Positions 31,996 to 56,028 of a stretch of 64,000 bases of DNA are shown here, piece by piece; positions within the stretch are counted from its first letter, which is position 1, and the number at the start of each line of letters is the position of its first letter. The notes under the pieces were generated by a model. It had not been told where the DNA came from, ran no database searches, and worked only from the letters and a program-made list of their open reading frames with translations. Location of the stretch: the NCBI RefSeq assembly GCF_014218335.1, contig NZ_AP023367.1, positions 3,473,501 through 3,537,500 on the forward strand, given 5' to 3'. This stretch comes from Anaerocolumna cellulosilytica. GTDB taxonomy: Bacteria; Bacillota; Clostridia; Lachnospirales; Lachnospiraceae. Both the position numbers and the translations under genes were made by a program.

Positions 31996-32072
31996 GAAAC
32001 ACATATAAAGAAACAACCATGCCCCCTTACACGGGGGGTAATACTTTATAATTCTCAGCATAGAAAATTTAT

Positions 32073-35000
32073 ATTTACATTCTGTTTGTATTAAAACTTA
32101 TCACTTGTTTGATTATTTACGATAATTGCATATATTTACATTCCATTCTGTTTATATTAAAACATACTGTCCCCTGCTTTTGCTATCCGTTTTACTTCGA
32201 TTTACATTCCATTCTGTTTATATTAAAACTGAACGGTTCAGTAACATCAAGTGAACGTATTTGGATTTACATTCCATTCTGTTTATATTAAAACGATAAG
32301 TTGGCAGAGGCAAAAAAATACTATTGGCTCATTTACATTCCATTCTGTTTATATTAAAACATCGGTAATTCGTGGTTCAAAATTCCCAGTAGTAGATTTA
32401 CATTCCATTCTGTTTATATTAAAACTATGCTAAACGGTGCCTTAACAGATTCTGTTATATTATTTACATTCCATTCTGTTTATATTAAAACTCTTTTTCA
32501 GGGGATTGGAGAGGGCTTTTTTAGTAATTTACATTCCATTCTGTTTATATTAAAACGGTAACACTATAGGAGATATGGTTGCTAATATAGATATTTACAT
32601 TCCATTCTGTTTATATTAAAACGCTTAAGGCACAGAATGGCTCTACCTTTTTTAACAGATTTACATTCCATTCTGTTTATATTAAAACTATTACATCTAC
32701 GGTTGATACTTATAGACCTCCTTAATTTACATTCCATTCTGTTTATATTAAAACAGCTTGGTATCAGATATGAAGAATTATTGTGTTTCGATTTACATTC
32801 CATTCTGTTTATATTAAAACGGAAACTACGGTTGTTGACTTGCTTGTAACGGCTACATTTACATTCCATTCTGTTTATATTAAAACCCCAATCTCGCAAC
32901 AATTAATTATCACCCTAGACGAATTTACATTCCATTCTGTTTATATTAAAACCCAGAAAACTGTTGTTCCGGATAGAGGATTTTATAAGATTTACATTCC
33001 ATTCTGTTTATATTAAAACGGTGAAACAGTATTACATATTACCCTTGTTAGGGAATTTACATTCCATTCTGTTTATATTAAAACCCGATGGAAAGGCAGT
33101 CACACTTTGCGGAAATGGATTTACATTCCATTCTGTTTATATTAAAACCTATGTTGATTACCGTTCCAGCCGTCAGCATAATAAGATTTACATTCCATTC
33201 TGTTTATATTAAAACGGCTACGCGCTCTAAATATTTGCACTTTACTTGTTCATTTACATTCCATTCTGTTTATATTAAAACCTTTTTTCATGTGTTGATA
33301 TAGCGGGTTGTCAATATATTTACATTCCATTCTGTTTATATTAAAACTTGCATAACTACATTAACGATTATCTCAATCAAAAGAATTTACATTCCATTCT
33401 GTTTATATTAAAACTGTTGGAGTATTCGCACTCATAACACTTTTTTATTTATTTACATTCCATTCTGTTTATATTAAAACTTCAAGAAAAGCGTCTGCCG
33501 CTTCACCGGTAAAGGTATTTACATTCTATTCTGTTTATATTAAAACCTGGAAAGAATTTGCACGTTATCAAAACTAACCATATTTACATTCCATTCTGTT
33601 TATATTAAAACAATGCTTAATCATAGAACAGAACGGGCAACTGCTTGATTTACATTCCATTCTGTTTATATTAAAACTCTATAGGTTGAGCTGGGAGAAA
33701 AGAGGGAATACATATTTACATTCCATTCTGTTTATATTAAAACTTTCTCACCTTTTTTAGCATAAGAACTTCCAGTAGTATTTACATTCCATTCTGTTTA
33801 TATTAAAACCCTGCTTATAACAAGGGTTGTCTGTTATGTATTTTTATTTACATTCCATTCTGTTTATATTAAAACACTATACAAAGTGGATATCACAACG
33901 GTGGAGGGGTATTTACATTCCATTCTGTTTATATTAAAACCAGAGCGGCACCTACTAGGTCACCTGAATTATTCAAATTTACATTCCATTCTGTTTATAT
34001 TAAAACTAACCAATGTGTTTTACTTCTCTTATCACCAAACAAATTTACATTCCATTCTGTTTATATTAAAACTAAAACCGTTTCCCAAGCTTCGCCCCAG
34101 TCTACAATATTTACATTCCATTCTGTTTATATTAAAACCATGCGTTTCCTCCTCCCAAAACGGTATATCTTCATTTACATTCCATTCTGTTTATATTAAA
34201 ACCTTCAATGGCGAGTAATCTTTATCCAATTCAGCAAAATTTACATTCCATTCTGTTTATATTAAAACTGGTTGCTTGCTATGCCCTGTTTATACGCCTC
34301 TGAAATTTACATTCCATTCTGTTTATATTAAAACTTTCAATCAAAAACTTCTTCTGCTCGTCCTGTTTCAATTTACATTCCATTCTGTTTATATTAAAAC
34401 TATAACCGATTTACAGACAATCCTTAGCAGGAAGGACATTTACATTCCATTCTGTTTATATTAAAACTCATATGCTTTATCTCTGTTAGGGTCTCTAGCC
34501 CTATTTACATTCCATTCTGTTTATATTAAAACTAATGATTTAACTAATACATCTGTTATGTATTCAATATTTACATTCCATTCTGTTTATATTAAAACTG
34601 CATCCATACGGAAATAGCTTGAACTTGTTTCGATATTTACATTCCATTCTGTTTATATTAAAACGACTCTGTAAAAATATAATCAATATCATCAATAGAA
34701 ATTTACATTCCATTCTGTTTATATTAAAACTAAACAGTATCACATAATACCAATATGTGGTATTTTATTTACATTCCATTCTGTTTATATTAAAACATCC
34801 CTGTAAACTTAGCATGATACCATTCGGGACCAATTTACATTCCATTCTGTTTATATTAAAACAAGAAAATGCACAATGTAGATTTACCGGTTCTGGTATT
34901 TACATTCCATTCTGTTTATATTAAAACGTATCTTATTGCATCTATGTTGTGGTTATTCTTGTCATTTACATTCCATTCTGTTTATATTAAAACTCATCGG

Positions 35001-38000
35001 TGTTTATGATGTAATAAGTATTTTCTTTGATTTACATTCCATTCTGTTTATATTAAAACCTCGCCTTACAGCATTTAGACCACCATTTTCAGCATTTACA
35101 TTCCATTCTGTTTATATTAAAACGTGGTACACAGCACATACTTAGATGTGCCTAAACATATTTACATTCCATTCTGTTTATATTAAAACTGAGGTCTAAA
35201 ATTATTGCCATAAGATACAACTTGATTTACATTCCATTCTGTTTATATTAAAACCCATTGAACATATATGTCTTACTCAATGCATACCTATTTACATTCC
35301 ATTCTGTTTATATTAAAACAAGATTTTTGCGACTGTTAATCCATTGGATTTTGCCATTTACATTCCATTCTGTTTATATTAAAACAAAACTTGTTCTGAT
35401 TCATAGCCATATTCGCATTTATTTACATTCCATTCTGTTTATATTAAAACCCGATATCTTTATGATAAAATTGCTTTGTAATTGACATTTACATTCCATT
35501 CTGTTTATATTAAAACAACAAGGGATAATAAGTTTAAGGTAATCCAGTTAAGATTTACATTCCATTCTGTTTATATTAAAACTAATTCAGGACTTAATTT
35601 TGAGCCATCCCAAATATATTTACATTCCATTCTGTTTATATTAAAACCGGAACAGGCTAGAAACGAAGCCGAAGCAATAGTATTTACATTCCATTCTGTT
35701 TATATTAAAACTCATCCTTGATATTAAGTTCTGTAAGCATATTCGAGATTTACATTCCATTCTGTTTATATTAAAACCTGCCGTATAAAGTATCTTGACC
35801 GCCGTTCTTAGCATTTACATTCCATTCTGTTTATATTAAAACCAAACTTCCTTATTTTGCTTTCACGGCTTGAATTTATTTACATTCCATTCTGTTTATA
35901 TTAAAACTATATAGATAGGAAAATAAGTGATTACTTGATATCATTTACATTCCATTCTGTTTATATTAAAACTCTTATGGCAATAATTTTAGACCTCATT
36001 CTTATCGATTTACATTCCATTCTGTTTATATTAAAACGATACAAAAATCAGTTGACCAGCTGTCTATTGATAATTTACATTCCATTCTGTTTATATTAAA
36101 ACACTATCATTGCTTGTCCTCCTATGCTATATTTATTATTTACATTCCATTCTGTTTATATTAAAACCTTTCTCCCCATTTGAACTTGAGACACTCTTGA
36201 TAGATTTACATTCCATTCTGTTTATATTAAAACAGGAGTGCAGCACTAGCTTTTTGACAGTAATTCTTGTATTTACATTCCATTCTGTTTATATTAAAAC
36301 GAAACCCCAGTAACTATAAGCTTTCCTTGTATACACATTTACATTCCATTCTGTTTATATTAAAACCGCTTATGGCAATAATTTTAGACCTCATTCTTAT
36401 CGATTTACATTCCATTCTGTTTATATTAAAACTTTTAGCACATAATATTGTAATTTGTCAAATATTATATTTACATTCCATTCTGTTTATATTAAAACCT
36501 ATGGCTAATGACCGTTCCGCGCATGATGTTGCTGATTTACATTCCATTCTGTTTATATTAAAACAAGGTCGCACTTGCTCTTACTGTTCAGGCACTTGTG
36601 ATTTACATTCCATTCTGTTTATATTAAAACGTTAAAAGCTCAAAATGGCTCAACCTTTTTCAACAGATTTACATTCCATTCTGTTTATATTAAAACAATA
36701 CTGCAAACAACTACAAGCACAACTTATCCAGAATTTACATTCCATTCTGTTTATATTAAAACAGTATCCGTATAGATTTGATACTGCTTTGTTTGCGAAT
36801 TTACATTCCATTCTGTTTATATTAAAACAGCAACAAATAATGTAAATAAAGAGAGGAAATCACAATTTACATTCCATTCTGTTTATATTAAAACATCCTA
36901 ATGAATACGCCCTTTTTTGTAGCGATACAATTTACATTCCATTCTGTTTATATTAAAACTTTCCTGTGTTGCAGGTGACTTAGCCTTATTTGATGATTTA
37001 CATTCCATTCTGTTTATATTAAAACTGTTTCGGTGATATTTACGAAATTATAGGGAAAGGATTTACATTCCATTCTGTTTATATTAAAACTCCACCACCT
37101 TCGCTGAAAGGCATATCCTCCTGGTAATTTACATTCCATTCTGTTTATATTAAAACGCTTACAAGTGTTAATAAAGTGCCTCAAACTGAGGAATTTACAT
37201 TCCATTCTGTTTATATTAAAACTTCAATTTCAAAACGATTTCTGCGCAATCCAAACCATATTTACATTCCATTCTGTTTATATTAAAACCAGGCCAATCA
37301 AGTTCTAATTTAAGTTATGAGGCTTTATTTACATTCCATTCTGTTTATATTAAAACTGGAATATATATTGCCGATGTTGAAATGGTCAAAGAATTTACAT
37401 TCCATTCTGTTTATATTAAAACATAAAAGAAAATAAATAAAGAAAAGAGGTTTTGACAATTTACATTCCATTCTGTTTATATTAAAACTAGCTTTTCAGA
37501 ACCTAAAGACTTAAACGCTTACATATTTACATTCCATTCTGTTTATATTAAAACCATCTGTTTCCTTTCTATCGAACATGTTTTTAATCGATTTACATTC
37601 CATTCTGTTTATATTAAAACCATAGATGGAGACTATCGCCCGAACTTGCTAATCAAATTTACATTCCATTCTGTTTATATTAAAACGAGTATAGAAAACG
37701 TTCCAGAGGGTATTAATGTTAATTTACATTCCATTCTGTTTATATTAAAACATTGGAGAAGATGTGTTCCTCTATCATCATAGTTGATTTACATTCCATT
37801 CTGTTTATATTAAAACAAAAATCAAATGTAAGAATGATAAACTGATTTTTAAATTTACATTCCATTCTGTTTATATTAAAACTATCGACCTCGATTACCG
37901 GATATCAAAACTAGAATATTTACATTCCATTCTGTTTATATTAAAACTGATAGTGCAGTGAGACATTATCTAAAGTTTAAGCGATTTACATTCCATTCTG

Positions 38001-39781
38001 TTTATATTAAAACTTAGCAAGTTCGGGCGATAGTCTCCATCTATGCCCATTTACATTCCATTCTGTTTATATTAAAACAGTAGGCATTACCCTCATATTA
38101 TGAGTATAGTAAATATTTACATTCCATTCTGTTTATATTAAAACGAAGCTTTTCCATGTAGGTGTCCCACTCGCTTTTCTATTTACATTCCATTCTGTTT
38201 ATATTAAAACGTAATCCAACAATTGCTATCCGTGCATAAAATTTGTTATTTACATTCCATTCTGTTTATATTAAAACCCACTTGTCCGCTGTATAAGTCG
38301 TATAGCCAGGAACATTTACATTCCATTCTGTTTATATTAAAACCTTATGGCAATAATTTTAGACCTCATTCTTATCGATTTACATTCCATTCTGTTTATA
38401 TTAAAACTAATAAAAGAAGGTGAACAATATGTAACAGTAAGAATTTACATTCCATTCTGTTTATATTAAAACTGTAATGGCAGTTTTAGGTGTAGGGCTT
38501 AACATCATTTACATTCCATTCTGTTTATATTAAAACATTAGCCAAGCTTAATAGATATAAAGTAGGTCAAGAATTTACATTCCATTCTGTTTATATTAAA
38601 ACTTCTGTTTGTAAAACTCATCTTCTGTTTTGTCTAAATTTACATTCCATTCTGTTTATATTAAAACTCTAGCTAGTCGGTGTAATGCTGCCGGTCTTGT
38701 GAATTTACATTCCATTCTGTTTATATTAAAACGTTTTGTACCAGACCATGCATTAGACATAAATTTATTATTTACATTCCATTCTGTTTATATTAAAACA
38801 CAACGGACATTTAATAAGTGAGGTGATTTTTTAAATTTACATTCCATTCTGTTTATATTAAAACTGAAACATCAATCTGTGCTCCCTTAATCCTATAAGT
38901 ATTTACATTCCATTCTGTTTATATTAAAACGCGTCTAACATGAATTTATATCTAGAAACATCAATTTACATTCCATTCTGTTTATATTAAAACTGTACCT
39001 CATAGCCTCGGCAAGTGTCATTTTTTCACATTTACATTCCATTCTGTTTATATTAAAACCTGATTTCATTCGCTCAAACCACATCTTTCCTGCCTTATTT
39101 ACATTCCATTCTGTTTATATTAAAACCAATTGAAAAAACCGCAGTCAGATTTACCGAGAACCATTTACATTCCATTCTGTTTATATTAAAACCTTGGCCA
39201 TAGATTCAAAATCAGTTGTCCATTTACATTTACATTCCATTCTGTTTATATTAAAACTTATAGGCTGTGGGGAAGAAACAATCTGCTTGTGTAATTTACA
39301 TTCCATTCTGTTTATATTAAAACCCAAATATCGGTTTCAGATTATATGGATTATTGGAATTTACATTCCATTCTGTTTATATTAAAACGCAATCGAAGCC
39401 GGTATTGAGTAGCGGTTGTGCAAAATTTACATTCCATTCTGTTTATATTAAAACAAATTAAATTGTCAGGTGGTTGTCCAATCTAGACTATTTACATTCC
39501 ATTCTGTTTATATTAAAACTATTTTTTCTTTCTTTCCAAAAATCATTTTAAGGGAATTTACATTCCATTCTGTTTATATTAAAACCAATTTAGAAACGGA
39601 TATACCATCAGATACAAACTTATTTACATTCCATTCTGTTTATATTAAAACTCTGCTAATAACTCAGCAGGCGCTACAACAGTAAAATTTACATTCCATT
39701 CTGTTTATATTAAAACTTTTCCTCTGCTATATATTCCCTCACAGATTCTTCATTTACATTCCATTCTGTTTATATTAAAAC
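32073..39781 (-). CRISPR. Type I-B CRISPR array, 118 repeats and 117 spacers
   Basis: A 30-bp repeat that on the plus strand begins ATTTACATTCC, continues ATTCTGTTTA and ends TATTAAAAC recurs every 64-67 bp from 32073 to 39781. I counted 117 full repeats plus one truncated one (32073-32097, 25 nt, five bases missing and one changed) and spacers of mostly 34-37 nt. One repeat (33517) has a single C-to-T change; the others read as identical. The degenerate copy at the low end and cas2 at the high end show that the leader is at 39782+ and that crRNAs are read from the minus strand, ending in the 8-nt handle ATGTAAAT, as in C. difficile-type I-B repeats. Several spacers are related (see findings). 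Confidence 0.98.
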
Positions 39782-39987: not shown

Positions 39988-40266
39988 TTAGAAGAAATTA
40001 GATGTCTTATCATCCTCTTTCCCCCAGAACTCTTTTTGCATCCATCTCTCTTCTCTACTTTTAAAAATAATTACTGAATCTCTGTTTTCTCGTATATGCT
40101 TATTTAACTCTAACTTCAACTGCTGTAATAGAGCTGGCGTAATATCACCTTCAAATACAGATTTTTGGACATGGGTAAGATACTTTTTACAGATTTTAAA
40201 TATGTTACGTGAAGCTTTGGCACCATTATCATCAACTTCTATATCATATATAAGAACCACATACAT
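39988..40266 (-). CDS. cas2: CRISPR adaptation endonuclease Cas2
   Basis: 92 aa from ATG 40266 (GGTGGTG just upstream), the usual Cas2 length; an in-frame start at 40308 lies inside cas1 and is less likely. Ferredoxin-like fold with conserved Asp in YVVLIYDIEVD at the first strand and the typical SRNIFKICKKYLTHVQKSVFEG segment. It forms the spacer-integration complex with Cas1. The start lies 1-2 bp past the cas1 stop. The gene is next to the leader. Confidence 0.95.
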   Translation of the reverse strand: MYVVLIYDIEVDDNGAKASRNIFKICKKYLTHVQKSVFEGDITPALLQQLKLELNKHIRENRDSVIIFKSREERWMQKEFWGKEDDKTSNFF

Positions 40267-40267
40267 A

Positions 40268-41260
40268 TCACCACCAAATTTTAAACCCTTCATATTTTTT
40301 ATCGCCAATAAGATGTTTGATTAGTTTATAACATTCCAGTCTAATCAGATGACGGTACGACACATTTCTTCCGAGTTCTTTATGTTTTATTGTTCTATTC
40401 AGACATTCGTCATACTCTTTTAATACCTTCTTTCTTCCACCATCTTTTAAGTAGTAATAATTAGAATCCCTTTCAAAATCTTTCTCAGTTATCATATTCC
40501 TATTCAATACTGAAAATATAATTCGGTCAGATATTAAAGGTTTAAATATTTCAGAAATATCCAACGAAAGTGAAAACCTTCTTTCACCAGGGCTGTGCAG
40601 ATAACTGATTGTAGGATTTAACTGTGTAACATATATTTCGGTTAAACAACTGGTGTAAACTAAAGAATTCACAAACGATATTAGTGTATTTACCATATTA
40701 TCTGGGGGTCTTTTCACACGTTTTTCAAAATCAACTTCTTGATTTATTATGCTTGTCCAACAATTATAATAAACTTTACGTATACTTCCTTCCACACCCA
40801 TAAGTGAATGAATGTCACTGGTACGTTTTATTTCATTTCGTAATCCTTTTATTTCTGATATACTACTTTCTAAATCCCGTTCTCTTTCATTATAATAACG
40901 CAAATTCCTTAGAATATTATAACTTGCAGCCTCAATAAACTCTTTTGCTATGATTAGTCTTTGTTCCTCATTGGTGTAGTGATTTACTTGCTCCACCAAT
41001 AAGTTTCCAGATACATTTGTCTCCTTGGGATAAAAACTACCTGTATAGAACCCATAATAATTAAAGATATGTATTGGTAACGATAACTGTCCTGCATAAT
41101 TTAATGTTTTTGTATTTAAAGATACCTCGCCAAACAAGTATATATCTCTTGTCATATTTACCTTGATATCTTTAAAATTCCCATCAGGTGCAGTCATCCG
41201 AAGCACGTTGTCTTTCCTCTTTAACTCACCATCTGAAAACAAATAAAAACTTTCTGACAT
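40268..41260 (-). CDS. cas1: CRISPR adaptation integrase Cas1
   Basis: 330 aa from ATG 41260, which has AAGGAG 8 nt upstream; the frame open from 41305 would overlap cas4. N-terminal beta domain with FYLFSDGELKRKDN, and the alpha-helical catalytic domain with metal-binding Glu in LMGVEGSIRK (about 155), His in SYLHSPGERR and Asp/Glu in LDISEIFKPLISD. It inserts new spacers at the leader end with Cas2. All key residues are intact. Confidence 0.96.
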   Translation of the reverse strand: MSESFYLFSDGELKRKDNVLRMTAPDGNFKDIKVNMTRDIYLFGEVSLNTKTLNYAGQLSLPIHIFNYYGFYTGSFYPKETNVSGNLLVEQVNHYTNEEQRLIIAKEFIEAASYNILRNLRYYNERERDLESSISEIKGLRNEIKRTSDIHSLMGVEGSIRKVYYNCWTSIINQEVDFEKRVKRPPDNMVNTLISFVNSLVYTSCLTEIYVTQLNPTISYLHSPGERRFSLSLDISEIFKPLISDRIIFSVLNRNMITEKDFERDSNYYYLKDGGRKKVLKEYDECLNRTIKHKELGRNVSYRHLIRLECYKLIKHLIGDKKYEGFKIWW

Positions 41261-41276
41261 GCTAATTCTCCTTGGC

Positions 41277-41765
41277 TTATATGTAACAGAACTCATAATA
41301 GGCACATGATTTACATATTTTTGATTCTATAACCACTGGACTCTTTTTCTGTTCTGCAATGTAATTGATATCTTCAATTATCTCTTTAATTTTGTCCAAA
41401 TCTCTTTCTTCTAAATAAACATCTTTCCGTTGTCTTATCTTAGGATAGTCTATGATTCCTTTCTCAATAGGTATTCCCCTTTGTTGTAAGAAGTATATGT
41501 AATATTTAACTTGCCATAAAGAGGCCTCTTCAATACTTTTACTTTTTCTAATCTCATGTAGGATTTTCCAATCCTTGATAAAATCTATATTTACAGTTTC
41601 ATCAATTAAAATCTGTTTATCTTCTCTTCCATAACTGTTTTCATCTAAAAGTTTTCCAAGCAAAACATTTTCACTTTCATCCTCTAATGAGATATTATTA
41701 ATGAAACACCAAAGTTTACGGTGACAAACAAAATAATAATAGAACATTGTACCTGTTACACGCAT
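41277..41765 (-). CDS. cas4: CRISPR-associated exonuclease Cas4
   Basis: 162 aa, the compact Cas4 of type I-B systems. Cysteines for the iron-sulfur cluster are at the N-terminus (FVCHRKLWCF, about 13-22) and in the C-terminal CKSCAYYEFC (about 150-159). Between them lie the RecB-like nuclease motifs, including GKLLDEN, ILIDETVNIDF and KYYIYFLQQRG. Cas4 trims prespacers and helps choose those with a correct PAM and orientation, consistent with the constant PAM-side ends of repeated spacers in this array. It is 17 bp upstream of cas1 and 17 bp downstream of cas3. Confidence 0.93.
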   Translation of the reverse strand: MRVTGTMFYYYFVCHRKLWCFINNISLEDESENVLLGKLLDENSYGREDKQILIDETVNIDFIKDWKILHEIRKSKSIEEASLWQVKYYIYFLQQRGIPIEKGIIDYPKIRQRKDVYLEERDLDKIKEIIEDINYIAEQKKSPVVIESKICKSCAYYEFCYI

Positions 41766-41781: not shown

Positions 41782-44094
41782 TTAGAAAAATCTATCATCT
41801 GCATTAATAAATTCTTGATTTTTAGTATTGCTAAAGCTAATTCCGACTTCATCATCATAATCTGCATCAATAACAAAAAATACAAGCCCATTCTTTAGTT
41901 TTAATTGCTCTTTAAAAACATTAGTGCCAAATGCTAATCTACTTTGAACAGGAACCATAAAATCACGTATCACTTCCTGAGCTTCTATCTTTTCTAGCTT
42001 TGTTGACTCATTTCCATCATTGCCATTGACTATGTTCATATTCTCTCTTATCCATTCTTCATTTACAGTAAAAATGGACTGAGGTATAGCTGACACCTGG
42101 CTAATATCACGAAACAGCTTGGTAACAGTCTGCTTACTATATTCATACTCTGTAATATTTCTAATATAATCTAAAGTATAAATAATTTTCTTATAATAAT
42201 CTGTAGCAGCAAGTTCCTCAATTGAATATAATCTATCAATCATTTCCACTTTCATTTTTTCACTTATTTTTCCATCCACTACTAGTTGACTTTTCGACAG
42301 TTCAAAGATTTCAGGTTCTATTACTGAATTTTTTCCAATTCCGCTGCATTTTTTATTTCCTCCGGTAAATACAAAGCAGTTGTAATCTACATCCAAAGTT
42401 CGATGTCTATAACATCGTCCCATTCTCTGAAATAATCCATTCAAATCAGATAGTTCAGTAAACAGTAAATCAAAGTCAATATCAAGGGACGCTTCCACCA
42501 ACTGAGTACTAACCCATATTTCATGTATTTCACTTCCCTTTTTGCCTGTTTGCATTATCAACTTTTCCTTTACATCCCTGTCTTTTCTTATAAATCCACT
42601 GTGTAGTAAATGTATTTTTTCTTTATCGGAAGTCTTTAATGACTCCTTAAGTTTTAAATAAACTTCTTTTGCTCGTTTTATAGTATTGCATATAACAAGA
42701 ATCCTATTATTTTTATAGTAATTAGCAATCTGAGCTATACTTTCTTCCTCTTCAATGGATGCCTCCACTCTTTTTATGCTATGACGAATCCAATTATTTG
42801 TGAATGTATTTGGCTCAGGTGGTACTAAGCCTTCTGAGTTCATTAAATCCAAAAACAGTCTAGGAAATGTAGCTGTTAATATGGCATATTTTCCCCCAAG
42901 CTTAGTTATATAAGATAACCCAACAATTAAATAGGCAACCAAATCAGAGGAATACATTTGGATTTCATCAATAATTATCTTAGAATATGACAAAGTTGCA
43001 AGCTTAGATTCAAACCCCTTATACCTATATACAAAGTCAAATATCTGGTCTATTGTACATATGGTTAAAGGAAGGGATAATTGCTTAGTACTTGTATAAT
43101 AATATTCAAGCTGTGAATCCCCTGTTTCTGAATGTCCATACTTCTTCCACTCTTTCTTTTCATCCTCTGCATATATTTTCAAAGTATCAGAATGAAGTAA
43201 ACCAACCTTTCTTCTATCTTCGTCATTTACTATACTTTCTATAATTCGTTTATATATTGCATTAATAGCACTTTTTAAGGGAAGTGTAAAAAACCCCTTA
43301 TTATTTCCAAGCCAAAGCAACCCTGCCTCTGTTTTTCCCATGCCTGTCTGGGCTATAACAATAACGTTATTGTCTTGATTTTTTAGCATATAGTTCTGTA
43401 AATCATTCCATTCAGCTAATTCGTTCTTTTTTCTCCACTCGCACAATATTCTATTCAATGTTATAGATAAAAAATCATTCTTAACTTCAACACAAAGTGG
43501 GCTGCTCTCTCCAGTAATATATGAACTGGCTGCATAATCAATCCGGTTTAAAAGACCTTTTAACATTACATACTTATAAAAATATATATTATCTCTGCTT
43601 TCATACAACCTCTCTCCCATCATAAAATATTTCTGGTCAAATTCTGGATTGAAATATTTAGTAGGTAATTTGGAATACTCAAATTGTTTAACAATAGTAT
43701 CCATTTGTTCTAATTCGTCATATATATCATCCATATTGTAATTCATTTCTCTTTCATGATGGTATGCTACAGCATGAAAGAGTACCATTATATCCTGATG
43801 ATTATACCCTTTATTAATCAGATATTTAACATCAATAAATCCAAGACTAAGCATACCATGCGGGATACCTGTATTCCTACCTTTTCCTTGCATAACCTGT
43901 TGAAAAGAATAATTTATTTTCCCTAAATCATGATAAATACAAGCCAAATACAACATATACCAATCAATGTTAATATCTGGATATATCTTTTTTAAAATTT
44001 CGTAATTAGCAAGTAAATCATTTGTATGTTCCATTATATCTTTTCTAGGTTTTGTTTTGGCAATAAATCTCTCATCTGCTTTTTTATCTGGCAT
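41782..44094 (-). CDS. cas3: CRISPR nuclease-helicase Cas3 (HD and helicase fused)
   Basis: 770 aa. N-terminal HD nuclease with the metal-binding pair in CIYHDLGK (His55-Asp56) and later VAYHHERE. Superfamily 2 helicase: Walker A AQTGMGKTEAG (about 248), DEIQ box in IIIDEIQMYSSD, motif III LTATFPR, and motif VI QRMGRCYRHR (about 560). It is recruited by target-bound Cascade and degrades the DNA. All core motifs are intact, so the system looks capable of interference. Start has AAGGAG upstream. Confidence 0.96.
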   Translation of the reverse strand: MPDKKADERFIAKTKPRKDIMEHTNDLLANYEILKKIYPDINIDWYMLYLACIYHDLGKINYSFQQVMQGKGRNTGIPHGMLSLGFIDVKYLINKGYNHQDIMVLFHAVAYHHEREMNYNMDDIYDELEQMDTIVKQFEYSKLPTKYFNPEFDQKYFMMGERLYESRDNIYFYKYVMLKGLLNRIDYAASSYITGESSPLCVEVKNDFLSITLNRILCEWRKKNELAEWNDLQNYMLKNQDNNVIVIAQTGMGKTEAGLLWLGNNKGFFTLPLKSAINAIYKRIIESIVNDEDRRKVGLLHSDTLKIYAEDEKKEWKKYGHSETGDSQLEYYYTSTKQLSLPLTICTIDQIFDFVYRYKGFESKLATLSYSKIIIDEIQMYSSDLVAYLIVGLSYITKLGGKYAILTATFPRLFLDLMNSEGLVPPEPNTFTNNWIRHSIKRVEASIEEEESIAQIANYYKNNRILVICNTIKRAKEVYLKLKESLKTSDKEKIHLLHSGFIRKDRDVKEKLIMQTGKKGSEIHEIWVSTQLVEASLDIDFDLLFTELSDLNGLFQRMGRCYRHRTLDVDYNCFVFTGGNKKCSGIGKNSVIEPEIFELSKSQLVVDGKISEKMKVEMIDRLYSIEELAATDYYKKIIYTLDYIRNITEYEYSKQTVTKLFRDISQVSAIPQSIFTVNEEWIRENMNIVNGNDGNESTKLEKIEAQEVIRDFMVPVQSRLAFGTNVFKEQLKLKNGLVFFVIDADYDDEVGISFSNTKNQEFINADDRFF

Positions 44095-44114: not shown

Positions 44115-45762
<1,648 letters not shown>

Positions 45763-45782: not shown

Positions 45783-47498
45783 CTATTTGTTTTCCTTGTT
45801 ACTTTCATTATTATTACTATTCCTATCTTTATCTCCATCTATTAAATTAGTAACAAAGGCATACCCTATAGTATAAAAAACTTCAGATTCTTCTTGTAAT
45901 ATTTCAGGTATAATTGATGGAACTTCTTTGCCAACATACATATAACAATTTAAAACCAAGTCCATAAACATATATTTATTACCTGTTTTTAAAGCATTCA
46001 TTAAACGATAATTAATACCTGACAGTTTATTAGAATCCTTATATGCCTCTCTAAGTTTTTTACCTTCTTGCAGTGCTCTTAACCTATAATTAGAATTCAT
46101 ATCTTTCAGCCCCCCTAATCTTTTGATTAACTCAATATTTATATTTAATATATTATTAATATGCCCTGTGTGAAAAAAACAATTATTTGGTGTTGATATC
46201 TTATAATAAAGTAATTTATGAATTAACAGGAAAAGGTTTTGATTATTAAAAAGATGATTTAAGACCTGTTCATATATACTTATAGTCTCTTTTCCTTCTT
46301 TATAATATGCTCGTAGTAATCCTTGTTTTTCTTCTTTTCCGGCAATTTCAATAATACAATCTTTTATTACACACAAGGTAGACTCTGGTACTATATTGAA
46401 TTTATAGCTTTCATTTTCATATCTTACAATTTGAACATCTGCTAATTCAAAAATTTCTTTTTCCAAGGTTTGCTTTATCAAAGCGTTTACTAGAACACTA
46501 TATAATTTTCTTGTATCATAATTATTTTCGCCACCTTTTAAAATATCAGCCTTCACTTGGTTATTCACTTTAATATTGTATTCCATATTCACATTGGCAT
46601 TAATGTATAGACCTCTTCCTGTAACATAAGTAAATCCAGCTGGCAAACATGAATATATCAGTTTACAGATAGGGCATACTGCAATATCATTATAAAAATT
46701 CCATACATGTGATGTCTTTCTTGCTATATCAAAACCAAATTGGTTCAGAAAACTCATATCGTTATTAAAATCTTTCATAGGCATACCACAAGTGAAGCAT
46801 TCATTCTTATATTTGGATTGGTCGAATTGTAAATACTCAAAGACTGGTTTTATAAAATATGTATTGTAATCTTCATAGATATCTAAAGTTTTTGTTTGCG
46901 GATATAAAAAACTTACTCCATTCCAACCATTTTTTAAAATCCCATATATAACATTTTTGCCTGCTATATAACGCTTTCCTGACTCATGACTACAATAACA
47001 TATAATATCCTCTATAATTTTATATTGAATTTTCACTTCCTCAATAAATTTACTTTTTTCTTGCTCAAAAGACTTATCATCTTTTGGTTCCTTGACTTTT
47101 TGCAGCTTTTTTTCAAGTGTCTGTATATAATCCATGTCCCCCATTAGTTTAAAAGCTGCTTTAAAACTGTTACTAGTCAGGTATCTTTTTAAAGTATCTT
47201 TTATAAAGATATTAATATTTTTTAGCTCTTTAAGATCTACAGCCTTAAAATCATTATCCCTATGATATTCTATCTTGTCTTTATAACTGACAATACGATA
47301 CCATGGAAGTGTATTTTCGTAAGTATTAATAAAATATTCAAAATACTTCTCTTCAAAATTTTCTAAATGTCTCACATGAAAATTAATGGTGTTATTGTGA
47401 AAGTTAATATTATTTTTTCCTATAATATTAATAAACCCTGTTAAAGCTGCATTCCACATCCAATCTCCAAGTTGTAATGTTATTTCCTCTCTTTCCAT
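45783..47498 (-). CDS. cas8b: Cascade large subunit Cas8b (Cst1 type)
   Basis: 571 aa. The zinc-finger pairs of the Cst1 family are seen as CFTCGMP (about 239-242) and CPICKLIYSCLPAGFTY (about 277-280), giving a CXXC-CXXC layout. The remainder is AT-rich in code and divergent, as usual for Cas8. It recognises the PAM and recruits Cas3. The last 20 residues are polar, with many Asn (KDRNSNNNESNKENK). GGAGGTGATTTT precedes the ATG. Confidence 0.9.
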   Translation of the reverse strand: MEREEITLQLGDWMWNAALTGFINIIGKNNINFHNNTINFHVRHLENFEEKYFEYFINTYENTLPWYRIVSYKDKIEYHRDNDFKAVDLKELKNINIFIKDTLKRYLTSNSFKAAFKLMGDMDYIQTLEKKLQKVKEPKDDKSFEQEKSKFIEEVKIQYKIIEDIICYCSHESGKRYIAGKNVIYGILKNGWNGVSFLYPQTKTLDIYEDYNTYFIKPVFEYLQFDQSKYKNECFTCGMPMKDFNNDMSFLNQFGFDIARKTSHVWNFYNDIAVCPICKLIYSCLPAGFTYVTGRGLYINANVNMEYNIKVNNQVKADILKGGENNYDTRKLYSVLVNALIKQTLEKEIFELADVQIVRYENESYKFNIVPESTLCVIKDCIIEIAGKEEKQGLLRAYYKEGKETISIYEQVLNHLFNNQNLFLLIHKLLYYKISTPNNCFFHTGHINNILNINIELIKRLGGLKDMNSNYRLRALQEGKKLREAYKDSNKLSGINYRLMNALKTGNKYMFMDLVLNCYMYVGKEVPSIIPEILQEESEVFYTIGYAFVTNLIDGDKDRNSNNNESNKENK

Positions 47499-47519: not shown

Positions 47520-48254
47520 TTATTGTATAAGTTCAAGATTACCAAATCCAAGTGAACGCTTCCCACCAATGCCTCTCTGATACAAATACTGTAGCAAGTA
47601 AGGTTCGCCTTTCATAGTAATGATTCCAAGAGAGGTTGCTATTTTATATTCATAACTGGATACAATTACTTTTTTCATTTTAACAAAGTTAATTTGAAGT
47701 TGCTTAATGTCAAAACTTATATCCCTGTCCATCTTTCCATTTAGTTCACTTATCAAGTTCCTTTTTAGAATAGATGCGGCTTCCTCATCTTCAAATGTAT
47801 AAAAACAATCTTTTCCTGTCTCCTTGGAGTGGTCACGTATAACAAGGGGCGACAGTGTGTTGAACACAGCTTGATTTTGGGTTATAATTTTTTCCTTTTC
47901 ACTGGTTATATTAATGAGCCTAATAGCATTTCCCCCTGACAGTTTGTACCATATAAATTTCTGACCGCATAGTGCATTATATAATTGAATCCCCAAAAAA
48001 GAGTCTGGCGTACTAAAATTCAATATCATTCTTTTGCTTTTAATACTTATGTACTCTTTATAAAATTGAGTTGGAGGAACGAAATAAACAGAGAACGTAA
48101 AATCTTTATTGGTGTTATTTCCGTTGCCGTATAATTCATGATAAAATTCTTTATTATACTTTTCTGTACAAAACTTAATGTAAGCTAAAATTTTTCTGCG
48201 ATAGTCAATTTCCAGTACTTCTTGTTCTAATTCAAATGTAAAATGTAATCTCAC
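47520..48254 (-). CDS. cas6: crRNA-processing endoribonuclease Cas6
   Basis: 244 aa. Two RAMP-like domains; the C-terminal glycine-rich loop of the family is clear (GIGGKRSLGFGNLELI, residues 227-242). It cuts the repeat 8 nt from its 3' end to leave the ATGTAAAT handle. GTG start with AAAGGAG 7 nt upstream. First gene of the cas operon, about 165 nt behind the predicted transcription start, so the pseudo-array at 48308-48388 lies in its own mRNA leader and could be a Cas6 substrate. Confidence 0.93.
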   Translation of the reverse strand: MRLHFTFELEQEVLEIDYRRKILAYIKFCTEKYNKEFYHELYGNGNNTNKDFTFSVYFVPPTQFYKEYISIKSKRMILNFSTPDSFLGIQLYNALCGQKFIWYKLSGGNAIRLINITSEKEKIITQNQAVFNTLSPLVIRDHSKETGKDCFYTFEDEEAASILKRNLISELNGKMDRDISFDIKQLQINFVKMKKVIVSSYEYKIATSLGIITMKGEPYLLQYLYQRGIGGKRSLGFGNLELIQ

Positions 48255-48307: not shown

Positions 48308-48388
48308 AAATAAATTCCATTATGAGTATATTAATATTTTTGTAAATTTAAAGACTTAATTTACATTCCTTTTAGTTAATATAAAAAC
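48308..48388 (-). ncRNA. Pseudo-repeat/pseudo-spacer mini-array upstream of cas6 (crRNA-like guide)
   Basis: Pseudo-repeat 1 (48359-48388) agrees with the array repeat at 25 of 30 bases, including the whole last 11 nt in crRNA sense and thus the handle ATGTAAAT. A 21-nt pseudo-spacer (48338-48358, minus strand, beginning TAAGTCTTTAAATTTAC) separates it from pseudo-repeat 2 (48308-48337), which agrees at 22 of 30, including ten consecutive bases. Changes in repeat 1 are all in the part away from the handle. Cas6 processing would give a short crRNA-like RNA. Its seed matches a PAM-flanked site at 48391. Function is inferred. Confidence 0.7.
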
Positions 48389-48411
48389 CATAAGTATTTA
48401 ATTTTACCTGT
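48388..48411 (+). promoter_or_regulatory. Predicted Cascade binding site at the cas promoter start
   Basis: CCA (48388-48390) is followed by TAAGTATTTAATTTTAC (48391-48407). This matches the pseudo-spacer at 15 of 17 bases, with mismatches only at positions 6 and 12. CCA is a working PAM in C. difficile type I-B. The site covers about +7 to +30 of the predicted transcript. Confidence 0.6.
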
Positions 48412-48424
48412 TACTCTTTTTTAC

Positions 48425-48453
48425 ATTATATTTCCTTTTTTGTAAATTGTCAG
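48425..48453 (-). promoter_or_regulatory. Sigma-A promoter of the cas operon
   Basis: Minus strand CTGACA (48453-48448), exactly 17 bp, TATAAT (48430-48425). Transcription should start near 48418 and run through the mini-array into cas6. Confidence 0.7.
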
Positions 48454-52523: not shown

Positions 52524-52568
52524 TTCACCTACTCTTTATATAATGTAATAAAGCAATAAGTAGGTGAA
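52524..52568. repeat. 10-bp inverted repeat holding two divergent SD sites
   Basis: TTCACCTACT (52524-52533) and AGTAGGTGAA (52559-52568) are perfect inverted copies, 25 bp apart. Each holds the ribosome binding site of a divergent gene. TATAAT at 52539-52544 lies between them. Confidence 0.5.
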
Positions 52569-52575
52569 GTACTGC

Positions 52576-54273
52576 GTGATACAAGAAAAAGGTGATCGTA
52601 TATACAGCAATGATTATGCCGATTTATTTATTGAATATAGCGGTGATGAAGCTATTTTTGACGAATTCACTGATGCGACGATACAGATAATAGATTACTT
52701 TCTTGCAGTAGTTCGCATACCGGTACAGCAGATAAATAATAAAACTATCCTGTCAATGGGTTATTCCGTAATGCCACATCTAAACGGCTTAATCAGTGAA
52801 ACCAGCAATGAGGTTACCGGTATAACAAAGGTTCGTAATATCCCTAACCTAAATCTCAGAGGTGCAGGTGTTCTTATCGGCATCATTGATACCGGTATTG
52901 ATTACTTGAATCCCATATTCCGCAACGCTGACAATACAACGAAAATTCTTACATTATGGGATCAAACCATATATGGGGAAAACTATGAAAGTAATACGTA
53001 TTATGGGACAGAATACACAAAGGAGCAGATTAATCAAGCCCTTTTAAGTGATAATCCATATGACATCGTCCCTAGCCGTGATGAAATCGGTCACGGAACT
53101 ATGCTTGCAGGTATTGCCGCCGGCAATGAGGTTCCCGATGCAGGGTTTTCAGGAGTCGTTCCTGATGCAGAGTTAGTTGTTGTTAAATTAAAGCCGGCAA
53201 AACCATATCTAAAGGACTTTTGGCGTATACCACAAGACGCAGTATGCTATCAAGATAATGATATATTGTTTGCCCTAGAGTACTTGGAGCAAACAGCTAT
53301 AAAATACCAGCGACCTATGTCTATCTGTGTAGCACTTGGTACCTCCTTAAGCTCACACGATGGCAGGGAAGCCTTAAGCAGAAACCTAACTGCCAGAGCT
53401 GAAAATCTGAATTTTTCAATTGTTGTTGCTGCCGGAAATGAAGGTACTGCTAAAAGGCATTATTATGGAATGATTAATCCTACCATTGGTTCAGACAAGG
53501 TGGAACTTTTTGTCGGAGCTAACGAGCCCGGATTTTCCATGGTATTATTTGGTGATTCTCCCGGTATATTTGCCATTGATATCCTATCTCCCTCAGGAGA
53601 ATACATTCCAAGGATTGTGCCCATACTGGATGAAAACAGAGAAATATCCTTTATTTTTGAACAAACAAAGATACTGGTTGATTACCAAATGGTGGAATCT
53701 CAAAGCGGAGATCAGTTAATCCTCTTTCGCTTCACCAAACCATCTCAGGGTATTTGGTCGTTTAAAGTCTTTGGAAGAGGGGACTTAAGTCTGGGTTTCC
53801 ATATATGGCTTCCCATGCAAGGCTTTATCTCTGATAATGTCTATTTTATAACTCCAAATCCTAATACTACTATCTTATCTTTAGGTAACAGCAGTGTTCC
53901 GATTACTGTAAATGCCTACAATGCTGAAACAAACGGAATCTACCTGAATGCCAGCAAAGGTTTTACCAGATTAGAAAAGGTGAAACCTGATATAACGGCT
54001 CCCGGTGTCAGTATTACAGCACCTTCCTTAGATCAAAGTTTTATACAGGTAACCGGCAGCAGTCCCGCCGCTGCTCATACTGCCGGTGTTGCCGCAATGC
54101 TGTTAGAATGGGGTAATATAAGACGAAATTTTCCGCTCTTAAGTACAGAGGATATTAAAGTTCTTATGGCGCGAGGTGCAAAACGAGATCCTGCAAATGT
54201 ATATCCAAATAGAGACTGGGGGTATGGAATTCTGGATGTCTATAATATATTCCGAAGCTTCCGAGGTATCTGA
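52576..54273 (+). CDS. Csp-type subtilisin-like serine protease, active triad
   Basis: About 565 aa. GTG at 52576 is preferred to 52564: AGGTGA sits 8 nt upstream and the N-terminus then aligns with the next paralogue (IQEKGDRIYSNDYADLFIEY). A short pro-region (1-95) precedes the S8 domain: Asp in GIIDTGIDYLNP, His in IGHGTMLAGIAAG, Asn in VVAAGNEGTA, then a roughly 130-residue insert (about 305-440, jelly-roll-like in Csp proteins), and Ser in TGSSPAAAHTAG. Csp proteases cleave pro-SleC during Clostridial spore germination. Size and pattern fit that family; no sleC is seen nearby. Confidence 0.82.
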   Translation: MIQEKGDRIYSNDYADLFIEYSGDEAIFDEFTDATIQIIDYFLAVVRIPVQQINNKTILSMGYSVMPHLNGLISETSNEVTGITKVRNIPNLNLRGAGVLIGIIDTGIDYLNPIFRNADNTTKILTLWDQTIYGENYESNTYYGTEYTKEQINQALLSDNPYDIVPSRDEIGHGTMLAGIAAGNEVPDAGFSGVVPDAELVVVKLKPAKPYLKDFWRIPQDAVCYQDNDILFALEYLEQTAIKYQRPMSICVALGTSLSSHDGREALSRNLTARAENLNFSIVVAAGNEGTAKRHYYGMINPTIGSDKVELFVGANEPGFSMVLFGDSPGIFAIDILSPSGEYIPRIVPILDENREISFIFEQTKILVDYQMVESQSGDQLILFRFTKPSQGIWSFKVFGRGDLSLGFHIWLPMQGFISDNVYFITPNPNTTILSLGNSSVPITVNAYNAETNGIYLNASKGFTRLEKVKPDITAPGVSITAPSLDQSFIQVTGSSPAAAHTAGVAAMLLEWGNIRRNFPLLSTEDIKVLMARGAKRDPANVYPNRDWGYGILDVYNIFRSFRGI

Positions 54274-54312: not shown

Positions 54313-56028
54313 ATGACTCAAGAAGAAAAATACAAAATAATCAGTGATGACTTTATTGACCTAATTATTGAATATAATCGAAATGAAAAACTATTAAACC
54401 GCTATACCAATTCCACCTCACATATTATCAATACCAGATATGCAATTGCCTATGTCCCTGCAAGCCAGCTGACAGATAATTTTGTGTACCAATATGGTTA
54501 TAATACCCTTCCCTACTGTTATGGATTAACCAGTGAAAAGAGCCTGGAAGCCTCCGGCATCTTAAAACTCCGAAGAGTTCCAAGCCTTAATCTAAGAGGA
54601 AAGGGTGTATTAATCGCTCTGGTTGATACCGGAATTGATTATACCAACCCTATCTTCAGACATGCAGATGGCAGCACCAGAATCGTGTCACTTTGGGACC
54701 AAACAATAAACAGCCAAAATCAGTATCCGGAGGATACTTATTTTGGTACCCTGTATCATTCAGAACAGATTAACCAAGCATTAAGCAGTACAAGTCCCTA
54801 TGATATAGTTCCAAGTCTCGATGAGAACGGACACGGTTCTATGCTTGCAGGTATTGCAGCAGGCTCAGAAGTACCTGCTAGTGAATTTAGCGGTGTAGCC
54901 CCTGACAGTGAATTAGTAATTGTTAAATTAAAAGAGGCAAAGCCTGCCTTACGCCAGTTTTTAATGATACCTCCTGATGTTCCATGCTATCAAGAGAATG
55001 ATATTTTATGGGGTCTAGATTTTGTCTTAAAGGAAGCCAGAAGATTACAGCGTCCTATGGCTATATGTATCGGCTTTGGCACTTCTCAGGGCCCTCACGA
55101 TGGTACAGGACCTCTAAATAATACCCTTAGTTTCTATGCAGATTTTCCCGGGATATCTATTGTAGTTGCGGCGGGTAATGAAGGGAATAAAAGGAGACAT
55201 TTCTTCAGCCAAATTGATTCTGCTATCGGTTACAGCACAGTTGAATTAAATGTGGGACCCAATGAGTCGGGATTTTTTATGGAACTTTGGGGAGCAATGC
55301 CAAATACTTATTCCATTGAGATAATTTCACCAGACGGTGAACGAAGCGGAAGGATTGAAGAAAGTATCTATGCAAACCGAAAATATGATTTTATATTTTC
55401 TAACACCACTCTACTAGTGGACTATCGAATTATAGAAACCCATACCGGAGAACAGCTTATTTTATTTCGTTTTAAACATCCGGTGAATGGTATCTGGCGG
55501 TTTCAGGTATATACCAGAGGGGATCTAAAGGGTTCCTATCATATCTGGCTGCCTATGGGTAATTTCATTTCAAATAATATATATTTTTTGGAATCTACTC
55601 CATATACTACTTTGACTTCTCCAAGTGACTCCTTTTCTCCAATTGCCGTTACTGCCTACAATCCCGCCAATAATTCTTTATATCTGGAGGCCAGTAAAGG
55701 GTACACAAGAACCGGAACGATTAAGCCTGAGCTTACTGCACCCGGTAGTAATATCACAGTTCCCATCCTAAATCAGGGATTTGGTGATTCATCCGGTACG
55801 GGTCTGGCGGCTGCCCACACTGCCGGTATTGCAGCACTACTGATGGAATGGGGTATCGTAAAAGGATTTTATAAAAGACTTGATTCAGTAGAAATCAAAA
55901 AATTACTAATTCGGGGAGCGAACAGAGAAAGTAGTCTAAAATATCCCAACAGAGACTGGGGATATGGAATCATTGATTTATATAATGTATTAAATGTAAT
56001 TAGGGGTAGATTTCCGGATAGCTTTTAA
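54313..56028 (+). CDS. Csp-type subtilisin-like pseudoprotease (catalytic Ser replaced by Gly)
   Basis: 571 aa, similar to the preceding protein along its full length, so the two arose by tandem duplication. Asp (LVDTGIDYTNP), His (NGHGSMLAGIAAG) and oxyanion Asn (VVAAGNEGNK) are kept. The catalytic Ser segment reads SSGTGLAAAHTAG: the position of Ser in GTSxA is Gly, coded GGT at about 55804. The enzyme should therefore be inactive unless a neighbouring Ser takes over. In C. difficile CspC is a pseudoprotease that senses bile-acid germinants; a similar sensing role is inferred. AGGAG precedes ATG 54313. Confidence 0.8.
   Translation: MTQEEKYKIISDDFIDLIIEYNRNEKLLNRYTNSTSHIINTRYAIAYVPASQLTDNFVYQYGYNTLPYCYGLTSEKSLEASGILKLRRVPSLNLRGKGVLIALVDTGIDYTNPIFRHADGSTRIVSLWDQTINSQNQYPEDTYFGTLYHSEQINQALSSTSPYDIVPSLDENGHGSMLAGIAAGSEVPASEFSGVAPDSELVIVKLKEAKPALRQFLMIPPDVPCYQENDILWGLDFVLKEARRLQRPMAICIGFGTSQGPHDGTGPLNNTLSFYADFPGISIVVAAGNEGNKRRHFFSQIDSAIGYSTVELNVGPNESGFFMELWGAMPNTYSIEIISPDGERSGRIEESIYANRKYDFIFSNTTLLVDYRIIETHTGEQLILFRFKHPVNGIWRFQVYTRGDLKGSYHIWLPMGNFISNNIYFLESTPYTTLTSPSDSFSPIAVTAYNPANNSLYLEASKGYTRTGTIKPELTAPGSNITVPILNQGFGDSSGTGLAAAHTAGIAALLMEWGIVKGFYKRLDSVEIKKLLIRGANRESSLKYPNRDWGYGIIDLYNVLNVIRGRFPDSF

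Follow-up and report, generated by a model that had tools for sequence, protein, structure and literature searches.

A putative CreR-type autorepressor in the cas mRNA leader of a type I-B CRISPR-Cas system

The type I-B locus and its leader

The window, by which we mean the whole 64-kb stretch of DNA that was analysed, carries a type I-B CRISPR-Cas locus in which the genes cas6-cas8b-cas7-cas5-cas3-cas4-cas1-cas2 are all intact and lie on the minus strand, with the array following them (Table 1). The array repeat in its minus-strand reading is GTTTTAATATAAACAGAATGGAATGTAAAT, and the spacers are mostly 35–36 nt long. At the far end of the array, a degenerate terminal repeat (23/30) occupies 32068–32097. 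Comparison of the array spacers with a phage collection gave no match, and a plasmid collection yielded a single matching record, with pieces scattered over the array at 69% identity.

Table 1. Positions of the cas genes, the array and the leader elements in the window
Feature	Position	Strand	Basis or remarks
Predicted -35 element of the cas operon promoter, CTGACA	48448..48453	-	Sequence and promoter scan; 17-nt spacing to TATAAT
Predicted -10 element of the cas operon promoter, TATAAT	48425..48430	-	Sequence and promoter scan
Target (protospacer) TAAGTATTTAATTTTAC	48391..48407	+	15/17 nt match the pseudo-spacer; mismatches at 6 and 12
PAM of the target, CCA	48388..48390	+	Its first C doubles as the outermost base of pseudo-repeat 1
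Pseudo-repeat 1 GTTTTTATATTAACTAAAAGGAATGTAAAT	48359..48388	-	25/30 against the array repeat; 8-nt handle ATGTAAAT intact
Pseudo-spacer TAAGTCTTTAAATTTACAAAA, 21 nt	48338..48358	-	Read 48358->48338
Pseudo-repeat 2	48308..48337	-	22/30; core AATGGAAT kept, handle degenerate (ATTTATTT)
cas6, first operon gene	47520..48254	-	GTG start, AAAGGAG upstream; TIGR01877, 93.1 bits
cas8b (Cas8b1/Cst1)	45783..47498	-	TIGR01908
cas7 (Cst2/DevR), backbone subunit	44881..45762	-	TIGR02585
cas5b	44115..44903	-	TIGR01895
cas3	41782..44094	-	TIGR01587, TIGR01596
cas4, cas1, cas2	39988..41765	-	TIGR00372, TIGR03641, TIGR01573
CRISPR array	32134..39781	-	116 exact repeats and 1 with a single change

All parts of a degenerate mini-array were found within 200 nt upstream of cas6, in the leader of the cas operon. 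Outside the array, no sequence of the window matches the repeat better than pseudo-repeat 1, whose last 11 nt, the handle included, are identical to the array repeat. The target lies just downstream of the predicted cas promoter, at about +11 to +27 relative to the inferred transcription start; together with the pseudo-spacer it forms an inverted repeat in the leader RNA, and for this reason a hairpin is considered below as a rival explanation. The sequence-only reading of this DNA had described the two pseudo-repeats with their identities, the length of the pseudo-spacer, the target, the PAM and the promoter motif, and all of these, with their coordinates, hold. The window sequence also confirms its statement that guide and target are mismatched at positions 6 and 12 only over the first 17 nt; the next mismatch is at position 18.

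Shuffling did not reproduce these similarities: among 2000 dinucleotide shuffles of the region, none equalled the 25/30 repeat match (the maximum of 24 was obtained once), and none of 6001 shuffles gave 15/15 at the read positions, whether or not the PAM was required. In the 5.43-Mb genome, a CC PAM followed by all 15 read positions occurs as a single perfect match, which is the leader target, and when as many as three mismatches are allowed, hits do not outnumber those of the reversed pattern. A second target-like site (G000:C1:2404951) was dismissed, as it lies within a large coding frame and its seed is mismatched at position 5.

Guides and targets in related loci

The sequences preceding cas6 were collected from 20 genomes of the family and genus and from 80 genome_contigs loci found via Cas7 alignment; the scan input comprised 98 loci (the window and 97 related ones), and the scan reached 700 nt upstream of cas6. 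Candidate repeats were required to match the handle at 6/8 positions or more, and a pair had to have a CC PAM and 12 or more matches in a run, positions 6, 12 and 18 being ignored. Since this rule was written after pairs had been seen by eye in several loci of the family, the genome_contigs loci represent the fresh set. Of the 87 loci that had a candidate ectopic repeat, 30 contained an own pair, and 22 of these 30 belong to the fresh set; the loci share ancestry, and some that have no array were scanned using a generic repeat. Swapping guides and leaders between loci produced pairs in 9 of 8439 combinations, which corresponds to about 0.1 expected pairs versus the 30 own ones. With a run of at least 16, there were 12 own pairs and none among the swapped pairs that were sampled.

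Not all loci have the unit: 57 of the 81 rows of the cas7 tree are without a guide/target pair. Upstream of cas6 in L039 and L040, CCA-flanked pairs are visible by eye below the repeat threshold of the pipeline, and the survey count is therefore a lower bound. L036 (G185) has two leader pseudo-repeats, 19 nt apart, at 110–33 nt upstream of cas6, and no CC-PAM target was found near this mini-array. In L058, L070 and L097 the mini-array and target are over 200 nt upstream of cas6; given this distance, the regulated unit may be a non-cas one, for example a CreTA-like RNA. In some relatives, the promoter scan that was applied to the window did not reveal a clear promoter next to the target.

For an unbiased test of mismatch positions, pairs were picked by total matches over positions 1–14, none of which was favoured. 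The 36 own pairs obtained in this way had 0, 0, 0, 2, 1, 17, 1, 0, 0, 1, 4, 21, 7 and 6 mismatches at these positions, i.e., position 6 was mismatched in 17 pairs and position 12 in 21, versus 0–4 at each of the other positions from 1 to 11. The swapped controls (274 pairs) were flat, with 47–61 mismatches at each position. Peaks at 6 and 12 are what reading by Cascade predicts, because every sixth base is left unpaired, and the concentration of the relatives' mismatches there agrees with the statement of the sequence-only reading that Cas7 flips every sixth base. Positions 6 and 12 of the H. hubeiense CreA can likewise be changed freely, and the remaining positions among the first eleven (1–5, 7–11) are required (PMC8501985). 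The PAMs of the 36 pairs were CCA (21), CCT (11), CCG (2) and CCC (2). The assignment of CCA as the PAM rests on the dominance of CCA and CCT in the relatives and on the type I-B system of C. difficile, where both function as PAMs (PMC8406132), as the array spacers yielded no protospacers from which it could be read.

That reading had also suggested a search of related genomes for covariation between the seed and the target site. In the window and the 97 related loci, seed and target were found to diverge together, next to a CCA or CCT PAM. In the nearest clade, the unit is present in the window, L045–L051 and L053, and L052 is the one member that lacks it. Among the nine loci with the unit, each guide agrees with its own target at 9–10 of 10 seed positions, versus a cross-species mean of 4.7/10, with the reservation that the seeds of L046 and L051 are identical and thus not independent. 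The leader layout is kept in 9 of 10 nearest-clade loci, each guide matching its own target. No close cas6 relative suitable for a species-level comparison was found in the genus.

The two pseudo-repeats have decayed differently. In the relatives, pseudo-repeat 1 keeps its 3' part and the handle (94%), a conservation that is partly built in by the handle threshold of the search. The pattern in pseudo-repeat 2 was not imposed in this way: the core of the Cas6 site, covering most of positions 5–23, is kept and the handle is lost (49%), with the G at handle position 3 retained in 8%. Such decay fits processing by Cas6 in which one guide would be made and no second one. The pseudo-spacers of the relatives are 14–28 nt long, most commonly 22.

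Three layouts of the unit were distinguished: inside the cas leader (the window and eight relatives), upstream in the same direction, and on the opposite strand. On the cas7 tree all nine leader-type loci fall within one ten-member group, to which this layout is confined, and the layout label changes 2 times versus 8.7 in shuffles. The deepest fork of this group, which involves L050, is weakly supported (89/26), and the inner nine-member group has a support of 99/89. Since the ten members span the genome of the window, whose family was judged Lachnospiraceae-like by its relatives, Desulfotomaculaceae, Desulfitobacteriaceae and Peptococcaceae, the leader unit probably travels with the cas operon.

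Alternative readings of the leader

The first alternative is an RNA hairpin or a protein-binding inverted repeat, i.e., a leader stem-loop or a dyad operator, in which case the resemblance to a guide and a PAM would be incidental. Target and pseudo-spacer do pair in the predicted leader RNA of the window, and their opposite-strand arrangement is common to most leader-type relatives. However, the fold is no better than that of shuffles (z -0.45), the target of L050 lies on the guide's own strand, and in 16 loci the mini-array lies away from the leader and on the opposite strand, which means that hairpin formation is not conserved. Nor would a hairpin favour mismatches at 6 and 12 or a CCA/CCT flank, and we regard this explanation as very improbable. 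Folding of the same inverted repeat in the leader could hinder processing, which is a point against the autorepressor.

The second alternative is an addiction unit similar to CreTA, whose guide would repress a small toxin and not cas. CreA of CreTA is known from type I-B systems in haloarchaea and bacteria (PMC8501985, PMC9458426), and its guide logic and subtype are the same as here (PMC8501985); the two degenerate repeats, the short guide, the paired seed (1–5 and 7–11), the free positions 6 and 12 and the absence of cutting are all features of CreA. CreA, however, guards a toxin RNA, whereas cas6 is the next gene downstream in the window. Between the promoter and cas6 there is no gene of toxin size with a ribosome site, and the approximately 30 nt between the inferred start and pseudo-repeat 1 are occupied by the target. 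Such a unit is highly unlikely, a very short toxic RNA in the leader being still just conceivable.

The idea that the unit is a functionless relic, the decayed end of an old array, can draw on the degenerate repeats and the large array close by, but is hardly credible in view of the intact handle in repeat 1, the intact processing core in repeat 2, a match quality unreached by shuffles, and guides and targets that remain matched while the sequence changes between species.

Proposed autorepression and its relation to known systems

According to our analysis, the leader unit is very probably an autorepressor of the CreR type built into the cas mRNA leader, through whose guide the defence complex probably lowers the expression of its own genes. 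Transcription from the cas promoter would place the degenerate two-repeat mini-CRISPR in the first ~160 nt of the transcript, and cleavage by Cas6 in pseudo-repeats 1 and 2 would release a short guide consisting of the AUGUAAAU handle and the 21-nt spacer. The 5' end of this Cas6-dependent guide RNA is predicted to be ATGTAAATTAAGTC. A shortened Cascade carrying the guide would then bind the CCA-flanked site 48391–48407, pairing through positions 1–5, 7–11 and 13–17, and, located downstream of the cas transcription start, would only block transcription of the operon, as we propose that the match is too short for cutting by Cas3. In the type I-B system of H. hispanica, spacers of 21–24 nt reduce the target mRNA to ~9–13%, with no interference or primed adaptation (PMC10989794), and in that of P. 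thermoglucosidasius guides of up to 26 nt repress and do not cut (PMC10551041). A guide of 21 nt falls within this non-cutting range, which would explain why the cell's own chromosome is not cut. The expected result is a feedback in which more free Cascade leads to less cas expression, and in which competition by ordinary crRNAs, or an anti-CRISPR that disables Cascade, would raise it.

Self-regulation of this kind has been described for the CreR RNAs (cas-regulating RNAs; Liu et al., 2023, Cell Host Microbe), which are presented in two reviews as autorepressors of type I-B, I-E and V-A effectors (PMC12737573, PMC13131331), with repression released by crRNA competition or anti-CRISPRs (PMC12737573). 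Like CreR, the window has a degenerate mini-CRISPR beside cas whose guide is partly complementary to the cas promoter region, a likeness that is read here from sequence. Every defining feature of CreR that sequence can address is present: the degenerate repeats outside the array (25/30 and 22/30) flank a 21-nt spacer-like sequence, the partial complementarity lies on the seed side, in the cas promoter region and adjacent to a PAM, and guide and target remain matched in the relatives. We therefore regard the window unit as a convincing new example of this recently described self-regulation. The sequence-only reading had proposed repression of the operon by its own Cascade. Coupled divergence, the position signature and repeat decay support this proposal; its novelty is smaller than was implied, since CreR has already been described for type I-B (PMC13131331, PMC12737573).

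The difference from CreR, as it is portrayed in these reviews, is that the unit is located inside the 5' leader of the mRNA that it would repress and that the target touches pseudo-repeat 1. The leader-embedded layout may thus represent a CreR variant. More tentatively, and with the balance of our judgement against it, this could be a distinct variant with two feedback layers, in which the Cascade level and Cas6 activity are sensed in one 150-nt cis module: the guide dose would be coupled one-to-one to cas transcription, and Cas6, by excising the guide, would sever the leader from its own mRNA.

Comparable arrangements exist in other systems. Shmakov et al. (2023, Nucleic Acids Res.) reportedly found type I and V-A mini-arrays with matches to cas promoters, and these are said to resemble the present unit in that standalone repeats flank a spacer partly complementary to cas promoters. 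In type II-A systems, tracr-L is a natural short guide for Cas9 autorepression; there, too, an effector represses its own promoter via a natural short guide, but the system belongs to class 2, with another effector and guide. Cas9 autorepression is also mentioned in one of the CreR reviews (PMC13131331).

Our survey suggests that RNA-guided cas self-repression is probably frequent in Firmicutes type I-B systems, and the sixth-base mismatch signature may be used for finding more units ahead of experiment. The prediction that inhibition of Cascade would raise cas expression is relevant to anti-CRISPR biology and to native type I-B tools, and the leader-embedded form should allow an easy direct test of dose-coupled feedback.

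Two minor observations concern other parts of the window. Within the array, the spacers at 37621–37656 and 38014–38048 are mutual reverse complements over ~31 nt, which means that one protospacer was sampled from both of its strands; the pair had no match in phage or viral collections. A spacer beginning with CTTATGGCAATAATTTTAGACC is present twice (36368–36402 and 38343–38377), and a search of viral contigs with one doubly represented spacer gave no exact match. Outside the CRISPR-Cas locus, 52564–54273 and 54313–56028 are tandem related genes that resemble subtilisin-type (S8) proteases and may be of the Csp germination kind; they have common blocks of DNA similarity at a spacing of 1740 nt.
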